A stretch of 64,000 bases of DNA from Selenobaculum gibii (lineage in GTDB: Bacteria > Bacillota > Negativicutes > ICN-92133), in NCBI RefSeq assembly GCF_030273445.1, contig NZ_CP120678.1:2457501-2521500 (forward strand). The letters run 5' to 3'. A program made the position numbers and the translations under genes. The notes beneath the pieces were generated by a model. It was not told the DNA's origin. It made no database searches and worked only from the letters and a program-made list of their open reading frames with translations. This document shows positions 50,032 through 51,769 of the stretch, piece after piece. Position 1 is the stretch's first letter. Every line of letters begins with the position of its first letter.

Positions 50032-50046
50032 GTGGAGGTGCACTCC

Positions 50047-51729
50047 TTGCCCACACTTTTATCCGATTTTTCAACAACTTTATTTGCAGGATTTCCTTCA
50101 CTTATTGCAATATTTATTTTTGCGTATCTTTACTTATGTTATCGTAAAAAGTATCTTTTTCTTTGGTTATTCTCTTGTTTTGCTCATACATTTCGCATAA
50201 AATTTCTCACCATGGTTCCCCTTAATTTACCGTCTGATTTTTGGCAGATTTATCAGTTTACATGCATTATTTCTATCATTTTAGATTTATATACAACAAA
50301 TACTTTGCTAAAAATTAAAAATAGAAAATCTTGGCTATACTTTTTTTTCACATATATTACGTTTCTCATCCTTACGTCTATCTTCAACTTTCCATTTTAT
50401 ACCGTATTGACAATTTCGTATATTGCGCTTTCTTTTAGCTCTACTAGAAATGGTTATATGTTTTTAAAACATTTACCCAAAAGTATTCATGCGAAAAATA
50501 TCGCAGCATTTTCATTCATTGCTTCAGGTCTACTGTTTTTTATTTCAGCAATTTTATGCATAATAGAAATCAACCAAAAACTTTTTTTGTTAGTCGAAGT
50601 TTTTCTAAGAATCCTTATAATCATTGGATTACTTTCTGTGTTTTTAGAAAAGAACAATTACGATTTAACCAGTGAAAAAATTCGCTATCAACGATTAACT
50701 GAAAATTTACCTGATACAATTTGTCGATTTCATATTCACCCAAACCTTCGTATCGATTATATAAGCCTTGCTATCTTAAAATTAACGGGTTATCCCCCTA
50801 AAGAATTTTACGATAATCCTCACTTAATTTACAGCATTATATATCACGAAGATCATCATATTTTTAAAGTTTTAAAAAAACAACCTTCTACTTTTTGCTC
50901 TAATCATAATCCCCCAAAACAATACCGCATCATCCATAAAAGTGGTAAATTTATTTGGGTGGAACAGACCTTTTCTCCTTTTTTCGATAATAATAACAAT
51001 ATTATAGGATTTGAATCGCTTATTCGCGATATCAGTCTAAAGCGCTCTCTAGATAAAGAAATGCTTCACTTAAACAATATGAAAATCATCGGTCAAATGG
51101 CAACAGAGGTAGCCGATCGTGTCCGAAATCCTTTAACTACAATTTCCGGCTATTTGCAGCTCTTTTATATAAAACCCGAATTTGAAAAGCAACGCAGTAA
51201 ATTACGTCTTGCATTAAACGAAATAGAAAGCTGCAATAAATTTATTCAACAATATTTATTACTAAGTAAGCAAAAAAATCTTGAGCTGACAAAAAGCAAC
51301 CTAAATGACATTATTATAGATATTCAATCTATTTTAAATACAAAAGCTTGCAACCTTGATGGATCCCGCAGAATAAACATTCATTTAAATTTAAACCCAC
51401 TACCCGATCAAATGCTTGATATAAGCCAGATTAAACAGCTTCTCATTAATTTAGCTACAAACGCCTTTGATGCCATGCCCTACACTGGTACATTAACAAT
51501 CATCACCCTTGCAACACCAAATTCAGTCATTCTAACTATTCAAGATGAAGGTTTTGGAATTCCAGAAGAATTTCTTAAAAATATTGGTCAACCATTTTTT
51601 ACAACCAAAGAGATGAATTCAGGGTTAGGTCTATGTATTTGTTACAATATCGCAAACTTACATCAAGCTGAAATTAATGTCGTTTCAACTCCCACAGGCA
51701 CAACTTTTGAAATTACTTTTCCTTTATAA
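50047..51729 (+). CDS. Multi-pass PAS histidine-kinase-like protein lacking the phospho-acceptor His
   Basis: About 560 residues, layout like the KinB-type sporulation kinases. Six to seven membrane helices (~10-210) are followed by a PAS domain (~225-330) and a HisKA region. There the usual AHEIRNPL box reads ADRVRNPLTTISGYLQL: the His is Asp (codon GAT at 51115-51117). The ATPase domain looks intact, with the N box (LLINLATNAFDAM), DEGFGIP and the Gly lid (TTKEMNSGLGLCI). TTG 50047 with GGAGGTG 6 nt upstream is preferred over GTG 50032. It may be a regulatory pseudokinase. Confidence 0.85.
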   Translation: MPTLLSDFSTTLFAGFPSLIAIFIFAYLYLCYRKKYLFLWLFSCFAHTFRIKFLTMVPLNLPSDFWQIYQFTCIISIILDLYTTNTLLKIKNRKSWLYFFFTYITFLILTSIFNFPFYTVLTISYIALSFSSTRNGYMFLKHLPKSIHAKNIAAFSFIASGLLFFISAILCIIEINQKLFLLVEVFLRILIIIGLLSVFLEKNNYDLTSEKIRYQRLTENLPDTICRFHIHPNLRIDYISLAILKLTGYPPKEFYDNPHLIYSIIYHEDHHIFKVLKKQPSTFCSNHNPPKQYRIIHKSGKFIWVEQTFSPFFDNNNNIIGFESLIRDISLKRSLDKEMLHLNNMKIIGQMATEVADRVRNPLTTISGYLQLFYIKPEFEKQRSKLRLALNEIESCNKFIQQYLLLSKQKNLELTKSNLNDIIIDIQSILNTKACNLDGSRRINIHLNLNPLPDQMLDISQIKQLLINLATNAFDAMPYTGTLTIITLATPNSVILTIQDEGFGIPEEFLKNIGQPFFTTKEMNSGLGLCICYNIANLHQAEINVVSTPTGTTFEITFPL

Positions 51730-51731
51730 AT

Positions 51732-51769
51732 AAAAAGCGTTTACAAGCACTGTGCTGCAAACGCTTTTT
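51732..51769 (+). terminator. Terminator of the kinase-like gene
   Basis: AAAAAGCGTTT pairs with AAACGCTTTTT around a GCAC/GTGC-containing inner hairpin, then T-rich sequence. It could act both ways. Confidence 0.75.

Follow-up and report, generated by a model that had tools for sequence, protein, structure and literature searches.

An Asp-Arg pair in place of His-Glu points to a lineage-specific pseudo-histidine kinase in Selenobaculum gibii

Introduction

To our knowledge, few pseudo-histidine kinases that keep an intact fold have been described from nature. In DivL of Caulobacter crescentus, which has a kinase ancestor, the acceptor His is replaced while the HisKA and HATPase fold and the other boxes are kept; DivL, a protein conserved across the alphaproteobacteria, carries a Tyr at the acceptor position and several PAS domains (PMC4211667). 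PtpB of Clostridioides difficile is an orphan kinase-like sensor of a spore former that represses sporulation without needing its His, although the conserved residue is still there (PMC11210211). A ChrS pseudokinase variant of Corynebacterium glutamicum, in turn, is a kinase-dead sensor that shapes signalling via a paralogous kinase, its ATPase domain having been lost in laboratory evolution and its His kept (PMC9491836).

The two residues at the heart of the H-box do not serve both activities alike. The kinase reaction of CrdS and of three other HisKA kinases depends on the acidic residue that follows the His, and their phosphatase reaction does not (PMC3510030). Changing H to A, or E to A, D, G or Q, abolishes kinase activity, whereas phosphatase activity survives H371A and E372A and needs the Asn at His+4; an Asn or Thr at this position is needed for the phosphatase only (PMC3510030). 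The CrdS His-to-Ala mutant retains most of its phosphatase activity, but PleC without its His loses both activities, so the rule has exceptions (PMC3510030). Arg at the Glu position was not seen among these substitutions.

Here we describe a kinase-like gene in a 64,000-nucleotide stretch of Selenobaculum gibii DNA (contig NZ_CP120678.1, positions 2,457,501 to 2,521,500; the window). Unlike DivL, the window protein has Asp at the acceptor position, has also lost the adjacent Glu, combines a single PAS domain with a multi-pass membrane part and is known from a single genome. Compared with the ChrS variant it is the reverse case, and in nature. A literature search for a bacterial pseudo-histidine kinase with Asp at the acceptor position, judged by its listings, found none, and gave DivL and the laboratory ChrS variant.

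Results

Gene, domains and surroundings

The window kinase gene stands alone, between divergent upstream genes read as 2-oxoacid:ferredoxin oxidoreductase and convergent downstream genes read as ptsI and ptsH (names taken from the translations, with no search). Its features are collected in Table 1. The hydrophobic windows of the membrane part lie at residues 12-30, 97-122, 155-183 and 180-198, giving at least four strong stretches by hydropathy alone. All three Pfam domains score above their cut-offs: PAS_3 at 40.7 bits, HisKA at 35.5 (cut-off 26.9) and HATPase_c at 73.5 (cut-off 26.4). The ATPase boxes are kept, with N468 and N472 in the N box, D500-G502-G504 in G1, PFFTTK as the F box and GLGL (526-529) as G2. 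Residues 341-560, covering the DHp and ATPase domains, align with the KinB-type structure 3d36 (Sporulation kinase B; E = 1.7e-23), and the likeness to KinB-type sporulation kinases within these residues extends to the box type, HEIRNPLT; KinB differs in that its His-Glu pair is present. The inverted repeat that follows the gene is likely a two-way terminator, still putative; it is absent from the results of an inverted-repeat scan, whose loop limit is 8.

Table 1. Features of the window kinase gene (positions in the window)
Feature	Position	Strand	Remarks
Ribosome-binding site GGAGGT	50034..50039	+	7 nt ahead of TTG; read by eye
Pseudo-histidine kinase gene	50047..51729	+	560 codons, TTG start
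Multi-pass membrane sensor, residues 1-205	50047..50661	+	hydropathy alone
PAS_3 domain, residues 238-323	50758..51015	+	Pfam
DHp/HisKA domain, residues 346-412	51082..51282	+	Pfam
Asp357 (GAT), His expected	51115..51117	+	His in 37/37 relatives
Arg358 (CGT), acidic residue expected	51118..51120	+	Glu in 37/37 relatives
Asn361 (His+4), kept	51127..51129	+	Asn in 37/37 relatives; phosphatase role described in PMC3510030
HATPase_c domain, residues 458-560	51418..51726	+	Pfam
11-bp perfect inverted repeat, arms 51733-51743 / 51759-51769	51733..51769	.	between kinase gene and convergent ptsI; read by eye

An H-box altered at two positions

The H-box reads ADRVRNPLTTISGYLQLF, with the core A-D-R-V-R-N-P-L, and the sequence bears out the initial annotation in placing a GAT codon where His is expected. 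The same annotation held that one base change, C to G, explains the box. This is wrong, since the Glu codon has been replaced as well: CAT to GAT takes one change, GAA or GAG to CGT takes three, and any His-Glu codon pair needs at least four to become GATCGT. Its view that the rest of the region is sound holds for the His+4 Asn and the ATPase motifs, but overlooked the Arg that stands for Glu. The Pro and Arg of the box are also retained, and no His in a shifted box register lies within 10 residues on either side of Asp357.

Set against what is expected of a functional HisKA kinase, the window protein has domains above cut-off and lacks both the phospho-accepting His and its acidic neighbour. 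Asn361 supplies the Asn or Thr at His+4 by which HisKA phosphatases are recognised in sequence. Like a pseudo-histidine kinase, the window protein combines a kinase fold in which the N, G1, F and G2 boxes can be recognised with the lack of a phosphorylatable His.

Rarity of the box

The family alignment comprises 38 full-length kinases, drawn from 36 fetched loci. It excludes three further matches in these loci, namely two short pieces in L087 and, in L074, a kinase of a different type. At L087:4638-10143, in one relative, an acyltransferase gene separates two closely spaced full-length kinases of the family, and fragments of yet another copy come after them. Judged from this alignment, the Asp-Arg box is not chance family variation, because all 37 other full-length relatives carry both His and Glu.

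Searches of genomes gave the same picture, using patterns that require the rest of the box to be intact, so that more decayed kinases would escape them. Among 100 genomes of the class, the box pattern with His had 273 matches in 43 genomes (summed from the table), the pattern with a non-His codon beginning with A, G or T had one, the window gene, and the pattern with the remaining non-His codons had none. A stricter Asp pattern matched one of 380 class genomes, and an Asp pattern matched one of 299 genomes in a sample of the phylum; both times it was the S. gibii genome. No second genome with an Asp-Arg box was found among these 380 and 299, in which the window's order is represented by one genome. 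Nor did a group of Asp-bearing kinases turn up elsewhere in these genomes.

The S. gibii genome contains 15 HisKA domains, and a motif search found a His box in 12 of the 14 others. Read by eye, the kinase at L054 in this genome has the box SHELATP, a His box. The box at L063 (genome positions 2412365-2412562), also read by eye, is SQELRAP, with Gln at the place of the His, and L063 may therefore be a second kinase of this genome, of another type, without the acceptor His. At L065 (1555880-1556071), a HisKA kinase with a 388-residue open frame has the box AHHVRTPL, that is, His-His for His-Glu.

Ancestry of the locus

In a genome from another family of the class (G013), the same gene occupies the same place, in a row of ptsH, ptsI, the kinase, three oxidoreductase genes, ung and an HD-domain gene (names by reading). 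The proteins flanking the kinase are 51-81% identical between the two loci, the kinases themselves 37%. The box of this syntenic orthologue is AHEIRNPL (codons CAC GAA), and the two kinases are sisters in the family tree, with support of 98/98. The long and compositionally odd row of the window protein makes this placing less certain; the shared gene order supports it independently. Ser367 is apparently common to both proteins and is seen in one of the 37 other rows. The ancestor at the locus was very probably a normal His-Glu kinase, because the syntenic orthologue has AHEIRNPL. Shared neighbours in another family and the sister placement rule out the horizontal arrival of a divergent family. 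A scan of genome contigs with single-protein patterns, poorly suited as these are, found no orthologue; its 7 matches were distant relatives, with best segments of 23-34% identity.

HisKA kinases bind their regulator at the helix following the His-Glu pair. In the 16 residues past the Asp-Arg pair, 13 are identical between the window protein and its orthologue. At 2.33 changes per column, the window protein has the longest end branch of the tree; the orthologue has 0.78, and the median end branch is 0.35.

Selection or decay

Of the 74 columns with at least 95% conservation, the window protein retains 56 and is off in 18, where the other 37 rows are off in 0 to 5; its changes extend across the full length of the protein. 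Many of its substitutions, among them R to K, E to D and L to I, are mild, and the change of GT to NS in the ATP lid is also present in L099, whose box is normal. Two changes at conserved residues, Arg395Ser and Glu402Gln, fall in the second DHp helix. The changed conserved columns number 6 of 23 in the DHp domain and 8 of 37 in the ATPase domain, a difference that is not significant (p = 0.76), whereas the DHp branch measures 1.68 where the tree median is 0.12, with the other domains at 3 to 5 times the median. An acceleration specific to the DHp domain, hinted at by the branch lengths and unsupported by the column counts, is not relied on.

The 560 codons contain no stop or frameshift. At 0.05 substitutions per site without constraint, the probability of seeing no stop is 0.010 and that of at least four of the six box bases changing is 9e-5, by a simple binomial that counts substitutions only, for a box picked after the fact. 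Under free decay it would be very unlikely for the pair to go while all 560 codons stayed free of stops. The arithmetic argues against such decay and is compatible with weakened constraint. The gene has the lowest GC1 (0.362) and the protein the highest FYMINK share (0.396) of the genome's 15 HisKA kinases, a composition typical of weakly constrained, drifting genes. Taken overall, we consider it quite probable that the gene is still under some selection.

A recurrent partner gene in the family

In 29 of the 35 other fetched loci, the kinase adjoins a gene related to FeeM-type N-acyltransferases with a cyclic-nucleotide-binding-like domain (Pfam was run on two of these genes). The 29 are L069:9820-13087 of the S. 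gibii genome (2531219-2534486) and 28 others among L071-L104. The arrangement looks like a pair of signal synthase and sensor; a literature search on the pairing of kinase and acyltransferase found nothing. The partner is absent beside the window gene and beside its syntenic orthologue. A B12-binding gene, read as a radical-SAM protein, also lies near the kinase in 10 of the 35 loci. At L069:13271-14149, a collagen-like (GATGATGAT) repeat protein is encoded beside a His-Glu paralogue of the window kinase and its acyltransferase gene. Collagen-like repeat proteins of this kind occur on spore surfaces.

Discussion

The window protein in all likelihood has no autokinase activity. A dead kinase is predicted because of Arg358; the change of His to Asp alone does not decide the matter. 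Phosphatase activity could remain, if CrdS is taken as the guide. Our preferred reading, held tentatively and a little short of probable, is that of a lineage-specific pseudo-histidine kinase which acts on the response regulator of its ancestor as a phosphatase or as a binding partner. By its sequence, the protein descends from a normal membrane sensor kinase with His-Glu at the same chromosomal place. It no longer has the acceptor His or the catalytic Glu beside it, and it retains an uninterrupted frame, the boxes for nucleotide binding, the Asn at His+4 and the helix past the box. Autophosphorylation would then be impossible, as would phosphorylation of Spo0F or Spo0A in the manner of KinB, and input from the membrane part and the PAS domain would be directed at the regulator that the ancestor served. 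The target would most likely be the Spo0A branch, at the level of Spo0A or of an intermediate resembling Spo0F. Acting there as a phosphatase or a binding partner, gated by its signal, the protein would restrain this pathway and not drive it; the signal is probably restrained or tuned by the window protein instead of being passed on.

The genome has a Spo0A gene, and at L106:1453-1707 a Spo0B-type ORF of 84 aa lies between genes read as rpmA and obgE, the classical place of spo0B. A phosphorelay is likely to operate in this organism, because both the Spo0A gene and this ORF are present. A second very short Spo0B-type protein (73 aa; L105:1459-1680) is encoded away from rpmA/obgE, and both have an HDFxNH motif. 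The name "sporulation kinase" is plausible for the window gene, given the Spo0A and Spo0B-like genes of the genome, although most members of the family adjoin the acyltransferase gene. A narrower form of the proposal is that a kinase of the sporulation branch turned into a dedicated signal-gated phosphatase, kinase-minus and phosphatase-plus, which would hold the master regulator off until the signal disappears and would have been selected for this. In that form it appears somewhat unlikely. For the broader reading of a restraining role, PtpB, a His-independent repressor of sporulation, offers a precedent (PMC11210211).

Could the altered box be an artefact, or the mark of a different chemistry? 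It is very improbable that an otherwise working kinase was misread at 51115 or was hit there by a single-base mutation very recently. GAT is one base off CAT and the His is there in 37 of 37 relatives, but codon 358 differs by three bases too, and this second altered codon rules out an error as the full explanation. HisKA kinases without the acidic residue were kinase-dead in the tests described in PMC3510030. The recent mutation that the initial annotation offered as one of two possibilities also sits badly with the loss of the neighbouring Glu and with 16 other highly conserved columns that are altered. The comparison of orthologues that it recommended did find His in all relatives, which shows His in the ancestor only and not an error. 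Its other possibility, a pseudokinase, gains support from two dead box positions in an intact frame, the retained ATPase motifs and His+4 Asn, and the long branch. It is also hardly credible that Asp357 or another residue is phosphorylated instead, or that the protein is a new type of kinase. The ATP-binding boxes are kept, and subfamily 2 ethylene receptors, whose kinase domains have diverged, have been described as Ser/Thr kinases (PMC3611092), but no sequence feature points in this direction and the catalytic acid beside the acceptor is lost as well.

Two further explanations deserve more weight. The window protein might modulate a normal kinase by pairing with it, for instance with the full-length His-Glu paralogue at 2531366, 22 kb downstream, gating this partner or phosphorylating the partner's His through its own ATPase domain. 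The retained nucleotide-binding boxes and the presence of that paralogue in the genome would fit such a role, as would the reported ChrS/HrrS heterodimers, with the ChrS pseudokinase acting through HrrS (PMC9491836), and the hetero-oligomers proposed for PtpA and PtpB (PMC11210211). However, the DHp helices are no closer to those of the paralogue than expected of the family: 9 of 26 residues are identical in the second helix and 10 of 16 in the helix past the box, with medians of 10 and 10, and two conserved residues of the second helix are altered. We regard this explanation as unlikely. Alternatively, the protein may have lost its role and its catalytic pair, with the gene now on its way out and a first stop still to come. 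The longest end branch of the tree, the 18 changed conserved columns and the extremes of GC1 and FYMINK share all agree with relaxed constraint, but free decay that changed four of six box bases should leave stops, and the frame is open over all its codons, 56 of the 74 conserved columns are kept and every ATP-binding box is recognisable. Such a drift is about as unlikely in our estimate.

The preferred reading, a pseudo-histidine kinase acting on its ancestor's regulator, comes with a built-in control in the syntenic His-Glu orthologue, which makes the claim of a change from kinase to phosphatase or gate directly testable. The locus also calls for caution where sensor kinases are counted by domain hits, as a dead box scores well above the Pfam cut-off. 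If the phosphatase-plus reading is true, the window protein would be a natural, membrane-bound version of the laboratory point mutants.
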